Shown piece after piece: positions 1,511 through 63,597 of a stretch of 64,000 nucleotides of DNA (its first letter is position 1; each line of letters starts with the position of its first letter). Source of the DNA: Tridacna crocea (lineage: Eukaryota; Mollusca; Bivalvia; Cardiida; Cardiidae); the NCBI GenBank assembly GCA_943736015.1, contig OX031065.1, positions 52,554,992 to 52,618,991 of the forward strand, given 5' to 3'. Under the pieces are notes generated by a model. That model saw nothing but the letters and a program-made list of their open reading frames with translations. It made no database searches and was not told the DNA's origin. The position numbers and the translations under genes were made by a program.

Positions 1511-1708
1511 TTAACCCTTAGGCTGATAAGTGCTACTCAAGGACCTTTTGCAGACAGTGTTGATTATGATCAGATTGCACAAAAGTGCAGTCTGATCTTT
1601 GATCCATACTGCCTTGTAAGAAAGTATTTTTCCCAAAAGAATTAACTTCAAAACAGCAATAATTGGATTTGTACATTCAACTTGAAAGTTTTAATTTAGT
1701 TATGTTAA
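1511..1708. mobile_element. Palindromic MITE type P
   Basis: Begins TTAACCCTTAGGCTG and ends near a TTAA. The middle is the palindrome GATCAGATTGCAC/GTGCAGTCTGATC with short spacer. The flanks (GACCTT, CAGACAGTGT, AACTTGAAAGTTTT) match the copy at 21727. Confidence 0.65.
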
Positions 1709-6435: not shown

Positions 6436-6664
6436 TTAACCCATTACCACACAATCCCTACTTTTGACGCCCCTGAGAAAGAAGCCTTTTGAAAACACTG
6501 TGGGAAAAGGAGAAAATGCTGGTAACCAGCATTTTCTCCTTTTCCCACAGTGTTTTCTACCCTTCCCAGAACAAATTTCAATTTTTCAGTCACCTTTATT
6601 TTGCTGTCTACAAATGCTTTCAATTTGGACCAGTCTAAAATTTTGTCGTGTGGTAAAGAGTTAA
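6436..6664 (+). mobile_element. Hairpin MITE type A, intact 229 bp
   Basis: Ends TTAACCCATTACCACACAA and GTGTGGTAAAGAGTTAA. The palindrome spans 6491-6557: two 33-nt arms without mismatch around a single A. It sits in a TTAA within the SINE tail: the SINE's 3' end resumes immediately right of the element. Confidence 0.92.
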
Positions 6665-7067
6665 ACCTCAATACAACCAATCAATCCAAATGCTTTGAGT
6701 TTTGCAATTCATTTCAATTCAATAAGCTTTATTTTATCCATGTATGTACAACATACAGTATGGAAATGTAATAAATAAATGACATAGAAATAATAATGTG
6801 ATTAGCTCATAATTCTGATGTCTGTTACAGGGTTAGACAAACACTGGCTTTTTTTGCACTTAATGGTAAGGGATTGTCTACAGATTATAAGGTTTTATCC
6901 TAAAGCTGTGCAGGTAGAGCAGTTGGAAGTTGTTTTTCATCAGTTAGAATGATAGCATTATCAAGGTACTGGTTGTATTTACTCACTGACAGTAAAAACT
7001 TCTGACCTTTGTGTAAAAAAAAAATAGTCCTATATACCTCCTTATTCCTATGTTTATGATTTGTCTT

Positions 7068-7199
7068 TGAAAGGTTAGAAAACATTGTGGAAAAAGGAGA
7101 AAATGCTGGTTACCAGCATTTTCTCCTTTTCGCACAATGTTTTCAAAAGCCTTCTTTTTTATGGTTGTTAAAAGGTTGGATTGTGTGGTGAAAGGTTAA
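7068..7199 (-). mobile_element. Hairpin MITE type A, truncated
   Basis: The hairpin (arms GGAGAAAATGCTGG) and the short arm remain, ending GTGTGGTGAAAGGTTAA. The long arm is missing left of GGTTAGAAAACATTG. Its terminal TTAA is also the first TTAA of the next element. Confidence 0.75.
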
Positions 7200-8943: not shown

Positions 8944-9172
8944 TTAACCCTTTACTCCACAGATACTCATTTCTACGCATTGATTGTAGGAGCCTTTGGA
9001 AAACATTGTGGCAAAAGGTGAAATTGCTTGTGACGAGCAATTTCACCTTTTGCCACTATGTTTTCTACCCTATCAAAAGGTGTCATATACACATAAGAAA
9101 CAGCTTCATCCTTGCTGTTATTTAGCGTTAATTAGAGATACCATAGAAATTCCTTATGGGTTAAAGGGTTAA
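8944..9172 (+). mobile_element. Hairpin MITE type C, 229 bp
   Basis: TTAACCCTTTACTCCACAG to TTAAAGGGTTAA. The hairpin has arms GTGGCAAAAGGTGAAATTGC and the tip CTTGTGACGAG. The long arm (CAGCTTCATCCTTGCTG, GAGATACCATAGAAAT) is unrelated to type A although the length is identical. Confidence 0.9.
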
Positions 9173-9614
9173 CACTTTTCCATTTAAGCAAACAATAATA
9201 CTGAACAATCAAACAGGTCTGTAAGTTTAGTCTCAAGATTTCTTCTTTTTCAGAAATTTTTCATAGATATCATACAAATCTCATATGTCTGTCGTCAAAA
9301 TCTTTGCTCAAAATAGCTAGACATACATATCTTTCTTTTTATTTCAATCTTGCATGTTCAGTAACTGAAGTGACCTGAAGGAAAAAGTGAGCACACTCCA
9401 CATGGAAAATCCAGACCAAAGCCGACAGCTTTCTTGAAGATATTGCTGATAATGAAAGCCTGTACTAATTAATGGCTATTTCTATGCTGGGTTGTTTACA
9501 AGAGATTTCCATAAACAGGAATGGCTGAACCTTGTTACCCCAGTCTTGCACTATTTTAACTCATCAAAATTCAGTAATTAATTAATGTTGTTTCTTCACT
9601 AAATATGTAATTTT
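9173..9614. other. Gene-free stretch
   Basis: AT-rich, no supportable gene or recognised repeat. Confidence 0.4.
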
Positions 9615-13557: not shown

Positions 13558-13791
13558 TTAACGCTTTCCCAAACAAGCCGTTCTTTTTACCTATCTGCAG
13601 TACAAGTCTTTTGGAAACACTGTGGGAAAAGGAGAAATTGATTGCTCGTAATGAGCAATTTCTCCTTTTTCCCACAGTGTTTTCTACCCATTTGGAGAGC
13701 TTTCTGCCATTTTCATCAAATTTGAAATTCTTGTCTTAAAACTCTTTTGAGTTTGGAAGAGTCTAAAATTTGTCGTTTGGGAAAGGGTTAA
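13558..13791 (+). mobile_element. Hairpin MITE type D
   Basis: TTAACGCTTTCCCAAACAAG to TTTGGGAAAGGGTTAA. Hairpin tip GCTCGTAATGAGC with arms GTGGGAAAAGGAGAAATTG. 234 bp. Shares its last TTAA with the next element. Confidence 0.88.
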
Positions 13792-14010
13792 ACCCTTTCC
13801 ACTCAATCCATTGCATTAACAATCACGAGATGGAAAACTTATGAAAACATTGTAGGAATTGGAGAAATTACTCATAATGAGTAATTTCTCAATTTTCTAC
13901 AATATTTTTTACATTATCAGAAGTACAGTAAGGATACAAATTTTAAGATTCTCATCCGTAGATGCTTTCAATTTGTAGACAGTCCAGATGTTTTGAGTGG
14001 GAATGATTGA
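13788..14010 (+). mobile_element. Hairpin MITE type E
   Basis: TTAAACCCTTTCCACTCAA to TTGAGTGGGAATGATTGA. Hairpin arms GTAGGAATTGGAGAAATTAC around CATAATG, with matching changes on the other arm (GTAATTTCTCAATTTTCTAC). Confidence 0.8.
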
Positions 14011-14548
14011 ACAGTAATCTGAACATGTTTTCTTAGGATACAAGATTTACATAACTCTGTACTGTAATCTATTACATTTAATGATTGTATTGTTCGGCAT
14101 TAAAGTGGCTATGTAACAGATTATGGATGATTTTTTTTTTTGTTCTCAATTTCCAACTTTCTAACTTAACTTTATCAAATATCTGAAATCAGGGGATTAA
14201 CCTGGTTTTGAAATGAAAATGACTGTTCATACACTGAAAAACCATTAGAAAAATAGCAAAAAATTAGGCATTCATAAAGCCAAATTCATATTTTTACAGT
14301 CAACGAGGTACAATCAGAATGGAAGAGGAATTCATCCCGTGAAGTCATTACCTTTTGATTTCACTGAACATTGCCTTTTTTGTTGTTTCCATGACGTATT
14401 TATTATGTCATTGGCTTCCGCTAGCATTTCAATCAGTAACAACATTATCCGATGAATTACGACTTTGTGCGATGAATTTAAATGATTAAAAATAGCACAT
14501 TAGGAGGATACCAAGTTAAATTACATTTTAACAATGATTATAGTTCAT
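14011..14548. other. Gene-free stretch
   Basis: AT-rich; contains a short T-run at about 14132. No supportable gene. Confidence 0.4.
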
Positions 14549-14913: not shown

Positions 14914-15135
14914 TTAACCCTCTTCATGCTGATCCCCGAATATTCCTATTTTGTATAGAGCTTTGGCAGTCAATATATACTAAGATCAGCCTGCACAGAT
15001 GTGCAGTCTGATCTTAGTCTATATTACCTGCTTTTGAAATTCGTTATCCTGGCTAAAAATTGGTATAAATGTGGCAAACAGGTCTTTTAATCTGAATCTT
15101 ATTGAGAATTTTTTTTTTTAATTCATTCAGGTTAA
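14914..15135. mobile_element. Palindromic MITE type P
   Basis: TTAACCCTCTTCATGCTG at the left. Palindrome AAGATCAGCCTGCACA/TGTGCAGTCTGATCTT in the middle; outer halves pair again (TATATACTAAG and CTTAGTCTATA). The right end is TTAAGAC with loss of the GGG. Confidence 0.7.
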
Positions 15136-21726: not shown

Positions 21727-21935
21727 TTAACGCTTCGACTCCTGAGGACCTTGAACGGACAGTGTAGGTCAAGATCAGACTGCACAAAATGTGCAGTCTG
21801 ATCTTGGGTCTACGCTATCCAAGAAAGAGATATCTTTCTTTAATAAATATACCTTTGATCAGCAACTAGTTTGAGTTTTTACTATTGGCTTGAAAGTTTC
21901 TTAAAATTAGTTCTTAAATGGCAGGATAAGGGTAA
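21727..21935. mobile_element. Palindromic MITE type P
   Basis: TTAACGCTTCGACTCCTG at the left and GGATAAGGGTAAA at the right. Palindrome AAGATCAGACTGCACA/TGTGCAGTCTGATCTT is perfect; outside it GTAGGTC and GGTCTAC pair less exactly. Confidence 0.75.
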
Positions 21936-28816: not shown

Positions 28817-29042
28817 GTGCAAAACTGTTCTAACTCAAAACCAATCTAAAACCCCAAGTTTAGGGGCACAACTGACTCCTTTATAGGGGTTATAAGATGT
28901 TTTCTTCAGTAAACAATGTAAATTTAGGTGCCATTGCTCATCATGAGCAATGGCACCTAAATTTACATTGTTTACTAAGGAGTGAAATTTGCCTCTAAAC
29001 TTGGGTGTTTAAGATGGGTTTTTAGTTACAATAGTTTTGCAC
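28817..29042. mobile_element. 226-bp inverted-repeat MITE with perfect 69-nt palindrome
   Basis: Outer arms begin GTGCAAAACTGTTCTAACT and end with its near-complement (AGTTACAATAGTTTTGCAC). The centre, 28908-28976, is two identical complementary 34-nt arms around a single C. Unrelated in sequence to the TTAA families. Confidence 0.85.
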
Positions 29043-35469: not shown

Positions 35470-35681
35470 TTAACCTCTAATGCCCTAGAACTAACTTTAA
35501 TTGCTTTAGATGAAAGTGTAAACAAAGATCAGACTGCAAAAAACATGCAGTATGATCTTAGATCTACAGTTTCCCCTATTCAGTCCATATTCTTGCCAAA
35601 ACAACCCTGAAATTGCAATAATTTACATGTTTGGCCTGACTAAAAGTATGCCTTTCAAAATTTATGTGCTTTAAGGGTTAA
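35470..35681. mobile_element. Palindromic MITE type P
   Basis: TTAACCTCTAATGCCC to GCTTTAAGGGTTAA, the best-preserved ends of this family. Palindrome AGATCAGACTGCA...TGCAGTATGATCT. Confidence 0.82.
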
Positions 35682-44299: not shown

Positions 44300-44405
44300 A
44301 GAAAAAGAGTAGATGAAAGTTCAGACTGCACATTCTATGCAGTCTTATCTAAATCTACACTGTCCATAGAAGCAAGTTTCCTCTCTCAGCACTGTAAGTG
44401 TTAAA
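44300..44405. mobile_element. Palindromic MITE type P, degenerate
   Basis: GTTCAGACTGCACATTCTAT then GCAGTCTTATCTAAATC and TACACTGTCC. Confidence 0.6.
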
Positions 44406-45233: not shown

Positions 45234-45468
45234 TCAACCCTTTACCAAGCAATCATAACTTTTAACGACCCTGAGAAAGAAGCCTTTTGAAAACATTGCG
45301 GGAAAAGGAGAAAATACTGGTAACCAGCATTTTCTCCTTTTCCCACAAAGTTTTCTACCCTGCTGGAAACAAATTTCATTTTTTGTTGTTGAGTTATATT
45401 TATTATGCCGTGTGCAAGTGCTTTCAATTTGGACAGGTCTAAAATTTTGTTATCAGCGAAAGAGTTAA
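45234..45468 (+). mobile_element. Hairpin MITE type B
   Basis: Left TCAACCCTTTACCAAGCAA (target eroded), right CAGCGAAAGAGTTAA. Shares TTAA with the next element. Confidence 0.82.
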
Positions 45469-45693
45469 CCCATTACCACACAATCCCTACTTTTGACGCC
45501 CCTGAGGAAGAAGCCTTTTGAAAACACTGTGGGTAAAGGAGAAAATGCTGGTAACCAGCATTTTCCCCTTTTCCCACAGTGTTTTCTACCCTTCCCAGAT
45601 CAAATTTCAGCTTTTGAGTCGAGTTAATTTTGTCGTCTGCAAATGCTTTCAATTTGGACCAGCCTAAAATTTTCTAGTGTGGTAAAGAGCTAA
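45465..45693 (+). mobile_element. Hairpin MITE type A, 229 bp
   Basis: TTAACCCATTACCACACAA to GTGTGGTAAAGAGCTAA. Hairpin with two mismatches. Confidence 0.9.
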
Positions 45694-45863
45694 ATAACTG
45701 GCTTCACTACTTTGTAGGTCAGCTTATAACATCTTTCCATAATCATCAATTGCTGGTTGCATTTCTGTATTTTAGTGCTGTTACTTGCATTTGTAATTGA
45801 TAGTACCATTAACAAACATTGATTACAATCAGTAGTTGGCATTATAATTTTAATACTGAATTT

Positions 45864-51166: not shown

Positions 51167-51395
51167 TTAACCCTTTACCACACAATAACGACTTTTAACG
51201 ACCCAGAGGAAGAAGCCTTTAGAAAATGTTGTGGGAAAAGGAGAAAATGCTGGTAACCAGCATTTTCTCCTTTTCCCACAACATTTTGTACTCTATCAAA
51301 AAATAACTGCATCATTTGAGCCACTATGAAATTATCATCTGCAAATTCTTTCAATTTGAATAGGTTGAAAATTCTAACATGTGGTAAAGGGTTAA
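51167..51395 (+). mobile_element. Hairpin MITE type A, 229 bp
   Basis: TTAACCCTTTACCACACAA to ATGTGGTAAAGGGTTAA. Here the outer arms read AATGTTGTGGG and CCCACAACATT: the paired change relative to CATTGTGGG is present in both arms. Confidence 0.92.
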
Positions 51396-51674
51396 TTAAC
51401 ATGGTTTTCAACAATATGTTGGATATATCATGGTGGACAGTGCACCTATCCATGCTTTCCTGAGGTTTCTTTTACCAGTGCTCTCACAATACTCGTTCCA
51501 AGCCACTGGCTGCTGTCCCACACAACCATCATTGAAACAATGATCAGGGTTGAGAGATGAATGAATAAAGAACCTGAAGATGATAGCATATAAATCTATA
51601 ATGGAACCTAATTTATTTGCGCACAAGCTTATGATTGTACAAACAATAAATACAGAAGAGTATGCATTCATGCC

Positions 51675-63171: not shown

Positions 63172-63400
63172 ATAACCCTTTGCCAAACAATCCCTGGTTT
63201 TTACGACCCCGAGATAGAGACCTTTTGAAAACATTGTGGGAAAAGGAGAAAATGCTGGTAACCAGCATTTTCTCCTTTTCCTACAATGTTTTCTACCCTT
63301 CTCAAAGCAAATTTCAAATTTTCAGTCACATTTATTTTGTCGTCTGCAAATGCTTTCAATTTGGACCAGTTTGAAATTTTGTCGTTTGAGAAAGAGTTAA
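63172..63400 (+). mobile_element. Hairpin MITE type B, 229 bp
   Basis: ATAACCCTTTGCCAAACAA to GTTTGAGAAAGAGTTAA. Hairpin near perfect. First of four abutting elements at the window end. Confidence 0.9.
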
Positions 63401-63597
63401 CTCTTTACCATAGGAGAAAATTTTAGACTGGTCCAAATTGAAAGCATTTGCAGACGACAAAATAAATGTGTCTGAAAGACTAAGATTTGATTTGGGAACA
63501 TAAGGAGAACATGCTTGTTTCCTCTTTTCCTACAATGTTTTCATAAGCTATCTTTCTCAGGGTTGTCAATAGTCCGGGTTGTGTGGTAAAGGGTTTA
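63397..63597 (-). mobile_element. Hairpin MITE type A, hairpin deleted
   Basis: TTAACTCTTTACCATAGG to GTGTGGTAAAGGGTTTA. The hairpin is reduced to AACATGCTTGTTTCC. Confidence 0.82.

Follow-up and report, generated by a model that had tools for sequence, protein, structure and literature searches.

Paired changes between the arms of a conserved palindrome in an abundant, putative piggyBac-type MITE of Tridacna crocea

When a palindrome recurs along a genome in several versions that differ by matching changes in both arms, the question arises of what keeps the arms complementary. Covariation of this kind is usually taken as evidence of a functional RNA stem. The case studied here comes from a stretch of 64,000 bp of the Tridacna crocea genome, 52554992–52618991 of contig OX031065.1 (G000:C10), here called the window; all positions below refer to its forward strand unless another locus is named. 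The original prediction described an off-centre palindrome of about 65 nt, shared by element types A to E and altered in both arms at once, and offered two explanations, selection on an RNA hairpin or a replication process in which one arm is copied from the other. The shared palindrome was found where expected (6491–6557) and measures 67 nt, G6491 to C6557, i.e., columns 54–120 of our HMM profile of the element. It consists of a 5′ arm of 33 nt (6491–6523), a one-base centre (A6524) and a 3′ arm of 33 nt (6525–6557), with Watson-Crick pairing at all 33 arm pairs. The matching two-arm variants were recovered as well: CACTG/CAGTG and CATTG/CAATG, GGCAAAAGGTG (type C) and AAATTGCTCG, AATGTTG/CAACATT in the type-E copy at 51168–51396 (+ strand, AATGTTGTGGG...CCCACAACATT) and the AAATTACTCA tip in the copy at 13791–14011 (+ strand). 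A scan for palindromes with 24-nt arms and at least 20 matched pairs returned 193 in the DNA scanned, 154 of them being this core, and none in single-base shuffles of eight records.

The element that carries the core, hereafter P1, is represented by a complete type-A copy at 6436–6664 (+ strand) with TTAA at both ends (6436–6439 and 6661–6664), so that the element proper covers 221 bp (6440–6660). Its terminal inverted repeats are imperfect: CCCATTACCACAC at 6440–6452 matches the reverse complement of the 3′ end, GTGTGGTAAAGAG at 6648–6660, in 11 of 13 positions. Among 112 near-full-length copies TTAA was present near the left end in 99, near the right end in 87 and near both in 81; measured from TTAA to TTAA, 30 of these 81 were 229 bp long, more than had any other length. 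From the TTAA at both ends, the imperfect terminal inverted repeats and the length of 229 bp, P1 can be classed as a non-autonomous, TTAA-inserting (piggyBac-type) MITE. The terminal motif CC[C/T]T given for piggyBac-type MITEs (PMC2872659) fits in part. At the 5′ end the consensuses of types B, C and D conform (CCCTTT) and type A has CCCATT, while at the 3′ end C and D conform and A and B read CTCTTT.

P1 is both short and extremely abundant. Using an iterated profile we resolved 94 copies in the window, covering 17,936 bp. A sample of 20 stretches of 10 kb each, spaced on a fixed grid along contigs 1–4, contained 177 copies (94 near full length) that occupied 33,846 of 200,000 bp (16.9%), i.e., about 0.9 copies per kb, with two of the 20 stretches free of P1. 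Extrapolated from these four contigs to the whole genome (1.05 Gb in 31 contigs), there would be roughly 930,000 (about 9x10^5) copies, and the core is thus an unexplained conserved module of a MITE filling about a sixth of the sampled DNA. One locus of the grid sample (L011) is a satellite with a period of about 1.67 kb, and another fetched separately (L031) is a satellite with a 1.6-kb period; both carry P1 copies at the corresponding spacing. A haplotype group (“AA...AT”) proved to consist of copies of the single L011 satellite. We also considered whether the hairpin could be mobile on its own. This is not indicated, since most cores sit within element matches: 183 of 229 full cores lay well inside them and 27 in truncated ones, the remaining 19 being in loci (L007, L030–L032) outside the element match list used.

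The window illustrates the variety of the family. Besides the copies already mentioned, it contains a truncated type-B-like copy with single-arm changes at 7058–7198 (− strand, CATTGTGG...CACAATG), a type-C copy at 8945–9173 (+ strand, GGCAAAAGGTG...CACCTTTTGCC) and a type-D copy at 13559–13793 (+ strand; CACTG, AAATTG...GCTCG) with an insertion in one arm. Two copies lie head to head with a common junction at 63173–63595, forming a 200-nt near-palindrome whose arms (63299–63398 and 63399–63498) are 85% matched, and several others overlap by a few bases (for example 45236–45470 and 45466–45694). These shared junctions and overlaps are consistent with insertion of P1 copies into each other's terminal TTAA.

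A property absent from the original prediction is that, between distant copies, the core is about twice as conserved as the flanks. The ratio of core to flank divergence falls from 0.65–0.76 in the closest pairs to about 0.43 in distant ones, and this decrease with distance indicates that the source lineages conserve the core. The consensuses have practically the same length (229 bp for A, B and C, 228 bp for D) and in all four the core lies 54 bp from the left end. In the comparison of B with C, 57 of 67 core positions agree, and the right flanks (33 of 87 ungapped positions) score no higher in alignment than the top-scoring of 200 shuffles; those of A and C align slightly better than the best shuffle (score 8 vs. 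4; 200 shuffles). The spacing and the palindrome thus appear to outlast the flank sequence, and the divergence at under half the flank rate, together with the kept spacing, suggests that the core may contribute to mobilisation or amplification. Such constraint between lineages, and the position of the core held in spite of diverged right flanks, are what would be expected if selection acted at the DNA level in the source elements, a symmetric palindrome being needed for efficient transposition (as a cruciform or hairpin, or as a pair of half-sites bound by a dimeric protein, either a transposase or a host factor) and a change in one arm being compensated in the other. We regard this as a possible explanation of the paired changes, with perhaps one chance in three of being the right one, and evidence that goes against it is given below.

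For the analysis of the arms we collected 342 copies and dropped 14 as near-identical. The same rule also removed the window copy at 6437–6666, of which a near-identical relative was kept instead. Of the remaining 328, 232 had at least 28 of the 33 pairs (167 of type B, 28 A, 16 A/B intermediates, 12 C and nine D). The coupling between arms that had been proposed held up well above chance. Two-sided Watson-Crick cells numbered 134 in a set of 162 distinct gapless cores; shuffling the letters of the 3′ arm gave 30.8 on average (sd 5.2, at most 52 in any of 300 shuffles), and sliding the partners by 1–3 columns gave 49–74. Most double changes fall at five pairs, and single-arm changes dominate at most of the others. 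The pair 61/113 (6498 with 6550; TA<->CG) separates types A and B; 67/107 (6504 with 6544) changes from GC to CG in type C, and 74/100 (6511 with 6537; AT to TA) is listed with it; 79/95 (6516 with 6532) changes from AT to TA in types C and D, and 84/90 (6521 with 6527; GC to CG) is listed with that one. The coupling comes mostly from about five pairs that separate the source lineages A to D. The majority consensus of type C has one unpaired change, a G.T at 66/108.

Since a few lineages and five pairs carry most of the covariation, it might be argued that a few source sequences simply happen to differ in both arms, the arms being unlinked. This we consider very improbable. The 11 source-level arm changes are made up of five complementary pairs and one single change; were changes placed at random, such an outcome would have a probability of about 5e-8. 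In addition, the excess of complementary doubles persists within type B and at one pair counted genome-wide, and a second, unrelated palindrome family has two-sided changes at more pairs than its shuffles (see below). Core variants linked to the flanks were also predominantly double at the strictest cut-off: at p<=0.002, five of 16 doubles and two of 125 singles tested were linked, with five doubles and five singles at p<=0.01 and seven and 16 at p<=0.05. A flank-linked variant, being common to copies with similar flanks, is one inherited from source elements. On a tree built from the flanks only, which has few supported branches, the double state changed once at 67/107 and at 74/100, three times at 79/95, six times at 84/90 and seven times at 61/113; among the results listed, tests of independent pairs on this tree had too few supported pairs for significance.

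Within the main lineage the picture is different, as the arms mutate largely one at a time after insertion. In the whole of type B there were 797 single changes. Nevertheless, in 161 of its 167 copies (six too diverged were left out) we found 64 complementary doubles against 37.3 expected (sd 5.0), a figure reached in none of 300 age-stratified shuffles, and no excess of non-complementary doubles (39 vs. 43.4 expected). By plain shuffles there was also an excess in types A (4 vs. 0.8) and D (10 vs. 3.9), and none in type C (0 vs. 0.3) or in the A/B intermediates (3 vs. 4.0). Although genuine, the excess in type B is modest, and some of it may stem from minor lineages not recognised as such. 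The original prediction would have been undermined if the arms mutated independently within each subfamily and a few founders explained the covariation. That description is correct for individual copies, among which singles dominate, and few lineages do carry most of the covariation; yet it fails for the source lineages, and complementary doubles are in excess even inside type B.

Single pairs were also followed genome-wide by counting exact 77-nt patterns, that is, in otherwise identical context. The reference type B pattern occurs 6117 times, with GC at the pair 65/109. At that pair we counted 452 A.C, 166 G.T and 43 A-T copies, the last against 12.3 expected under independence. At 81/93, close to the centre, there were 63 and 37 single changes and no doubles (0.4 expected by chance), while a conversion rate of 5%, as at 65/109, would have given about five. 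The first pair is thus strongly coupled and the second not at all. Since A.C at 65/109 reaches 452 copies, far more than the single changes at site 81 (63) or site 93 (37), a mismatched lineage has probably multiplied. Perfect pairing is neither required nor quickly restored, and mismatched lineages amplify. Given the uncoupled 81/93 and these amplifying lineages, neither perfect pairing nor a uniform rate of copying holds. For selection on DNA symmetry this is a difficulty, because the A.C copies, all in one exact context, and the G.T majority in type C show that a mismatch does not stop amplification.

To see on what backgrounds the 65/109 variants lie, we sampled the flanks of 20 of the 43 A-T copies, 20 of the 452 A.C copies and 20 of the 166 G.T copies, plus one more G.T copy. 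Distances within and between the three groups were alike (0.27–0.31), and the 60 nearest flank neighbours of the A-T copies were 27 A-T, 24 A.C, eight G.T and one GC. The A-T double is therefore found with many different flanks, which resemble those of the A.C copies most closely, and since the flank groups overlap the 43 A-T copies may not be independent events. In these loci (L038–L097) the 77-nt core stretch is identical apart from 65/109 over flanks about 30% apart, from which it follows that many source lineages share one core. Near-identical cores on flanks about 0.3 apart are also what exchange of cores between copies, by gene conversion or recombination, would produce by spreading symmetric cores onto different flanks. 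In a Mantel test with 159 copies core and flank distances were correlated at r 0.11–0.17, against 0.29–0.42 between left and right flanks. However, a low core-flank correlation is expected from noise, as the core has few shared variants, and exchange alone leaves the origin of the double changes unexplained; we believe that it has very little chance of being the main cause.

If template switching occasionally recopies one arm from the other, the centre or spacer should sometimes be inverted as well. Inverting a perfect palindrome alters only its centre, here from A to T. In the type B context, T was found at the centre in 418 copies genome-wide and G in 150, against the 6117 of reference. The same A>T change at one arm control site was found 51 times, so that it is eight times commoner at the centre. 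In the type B sample the centre was T in 22 of 164 copies (13.4%), and complement changes at 40 A/T sites of the arms averaged 2.8% with a maximum of 9.7%. The number of A>G changes is raised as well, which suggests that a general hotspot may account for some of the excess at the centre. Copies with a T centre were not clustered by flank (6 of 60 neighbours vs. 8.1 expected, p 0.72), and none of the 28 type A copies had it. The T centre could also be an old source polymorphism.

A further line of evidence comes from a different family detected by the palindrome scan. P2 consists of hairpins of about 66 nt, in classes GATCAGCCTGCGC and GATCAGACTGCAC, with arms that contain GATCAGCCTGCGC and relatives and are unrelated in sequence to P1. 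Five lie in the window (1550–1611, 14967–15025, 21756–21820, 35512–35574 and 44304–44365) and others at L017, L020–L022, L024, L027 and elsewhere. A 13-nt word related to P2 was also found in a Dreissena primer (PMC5155230) and in two unrelated papers, as far as the matched excerpts go. In 66 near-full cores out of 86 found, 23 of 30 pairs had two-sided change (17.5 in shuffles) and the covariation score was 0.348, compared with 0.171 when shuffled and at most 0.072 when slid; P2 thus covaries more strongly than the P1 core. Taking the orientation from the flanks, which was feasible in 54 of the 86 copies, 31 belonged to the GC-class, and after subtracting two gapped copies and one tie, 28 were informative. 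In six of these the 5-nt spacer AGTCC was nearer its own reverse complement, three being clear inversions (GGACT, GGATT, AGACT) and the other three weak. None of the 21 informative copies of the P2b class had an inverted spacer. An apparently frequent spacer inversion, obtained when the strand was chosen from the core only, turned out to be mostly an artefact once copies were oriented by flank. Selection on DNA symmetry predicts neither the inversion of a spacer or centre nor that an unrelated family of other sequence should behave likewise.

Turning to the RNA hairpin of the original prediction, we found little in its favour beyond the predicted stability of the fold, since the element taken as RNA is modelled at −80.2 kcal/mol (z −8.7). 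Precedent does exist. Made1 is a mariner-type MITE. Human miRNA genes (hsa-mir-548) derive from it (PMC1784062) and, like P1, it is short and its sequence can give an RNA hairpin; at P1 nothing points to selection on RNA. If an RNA stem were under selection on one strand, G.U should be tolerated more readily than A.C. In type B the two mismatches were nevertheless equally common (216 G.T vs. 199 A.C cells in 167 copies, p 0.43), as they were in P2 (102 vs. 91, p 0.47). Small groups deviate in both directions (at GC pairs, 4 G.T vs. 19 A.C in type A and 10 vs. 3 in type D), which we read as shared ancestry. Moreover, complementary transversions make up four of the five main doubles in P1, and these are not transitions of the kind that pass through a wobble pair, and an Rfam scan of the window gave no match at the gathering threshold. 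Host selection, besides, would hardly be able to act on about a million copies. Selection on a transcribed hairpin (a pre-miRNA or siRNA precursor) therefore went unsupported and seems to us most unlikely.

The explanation that we favour, albeit with as much reserve as confidence, is arm-to-arm copying in the source lineages, combined with constraint that acts on the core. It is also the better supported of the two options first proposed. Pairing has been kept across source lineages, the excess of doubles in type B is of complementary ones only, P2 covaries too, and there are inversion-like changes of centre and spacer. What counts most against it is the uncoupled pair 81/93, together with the successful mismatched lineages and the number of changes of the double state on the weakly supported flank tree. 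During germline replication the palindrome would occasionally make the polymerase switch template, so that one arm is recopied from the other and a mismatch is turned either into a reversion or into a double change. Such a switch would sometimes invert the centre or spacer. Long-lived source lineages accumulating events of this type would end up with perfect palindromes of co-varied arms, while the core would also play some part in mobilisation or amplification. In yeast, template switching between the arms of inverted repeats homogenises the arms and inverts spacers (PMC8604942); template switching has also been put forward as a process that maintains RNA hairpins (PMC8794818). Signs of both footprints, homogenisation of arms and inversion, are present in the two families studied here, the homogenisation being apparent statistically and not event by event. 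Template switching is in our judgement the likeliest source of the paired changes, a claim that we would put at about an even chance; DNA-level selection for symmetry comes next, at around a third, and the two may act together.

The resemblance to the yeast coding repeats and RNA stems in which template switching has been described lies in arms made identical in one event, with several bases changing at once and spacers inverting (PMC8604942, PMC8794818). Those cases were inferred in genes from reconstructed histories of strains or species, whereas ours is a multi-copy transposon without resolved histories. Perfect inverted repeats with identical arms are also known from nematomorph mitochondria, for which repeat conversion, possibly by template switching, was suggested; they differ in being located in mitochondrial coding genes and not in a transposon, and in reaching 284 bp (PMC6649704). 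Among MITEs the closest likeness that we found is to CMITE, the piggyBac-type elements of the coral genus Acropora, which also have TTAA target sites and CCCTTT-type ends, are better conserved internally than at their ends, and occur in many copies and in tandem arrays (PMC2872659). CMITE differs in its length (about 100 bp), in its estimated 1600 or so copies in A. millepora and in its internal sequence, and the available text of that paper describes no palindrome or arm covariation (PMC2872659). Its 60-nt internal consensus had a best blastn E of 1.9 against the window and the other sampled DNA, and nhmmer gave no match there at E<=10. Among the matches listed from the open-licence literature, the excerpts mentioned neither covarying arms nor template switching in the palindromes of MITEs.

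Strong stem covariation is thus found in two families that show no trace of selection on RNA, so that mutation by itself could produce it. This is a caution for covariation tests, in which a stem signal may arise from mutation. We would go further only tentatively, and propose that the palindromes of at least two unrelated abundant families perpetuate themselves by arm-to-arm copying in the germline, template switching holding them symmetric while their sequence drifts in paired steps; with the same reserve, this drift would mimic the compensatory evolution of an RNA in the absence of any RNA. If that were true, the rates of template switching in the germline would be recorded naturally in hundreds of thousands of copies. 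With about a million copies available, it should also be feasible to measure directly how often arms are copied and spacers inverted in the germline.

A search for the autonomous partner of P1 gave 118 matches to the DDE_Tnp_1_7 transposase in the genome. Five transposase loci were read, and of the two with recognisable ends both differed from CCCTTTACCACAC, so that no partner with such ends was found among them; strong core matches overlapped the transposase match in none of the five. The locus L033 (G000:C10:28375200-28378500) has an open piggyBac transposase frame of 624 aa and ends CCCTTTATATAC, and was rejected as the partner because these differ from the ends of the MITE. Three places with a 624-aa piggyBac frame scored nearly equally in the transposase search. 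In L034 and L035 cores adjoin the transposase match. Outside the P1 core set, the window contains a perfect palindrome with 24-bp arms at 28918–28966 (GTAAATTTAGGTGCCATTGCTCATC...GAGCAATGGCACCTAAATTTAC), and further palindrome families, TCGGTAATATTTTCACTCGTG and TGGGTACTCATTAGAATCGTCTC, were seen in other loci (L008 1119–1167, L013 4725–4772; L023, L026).
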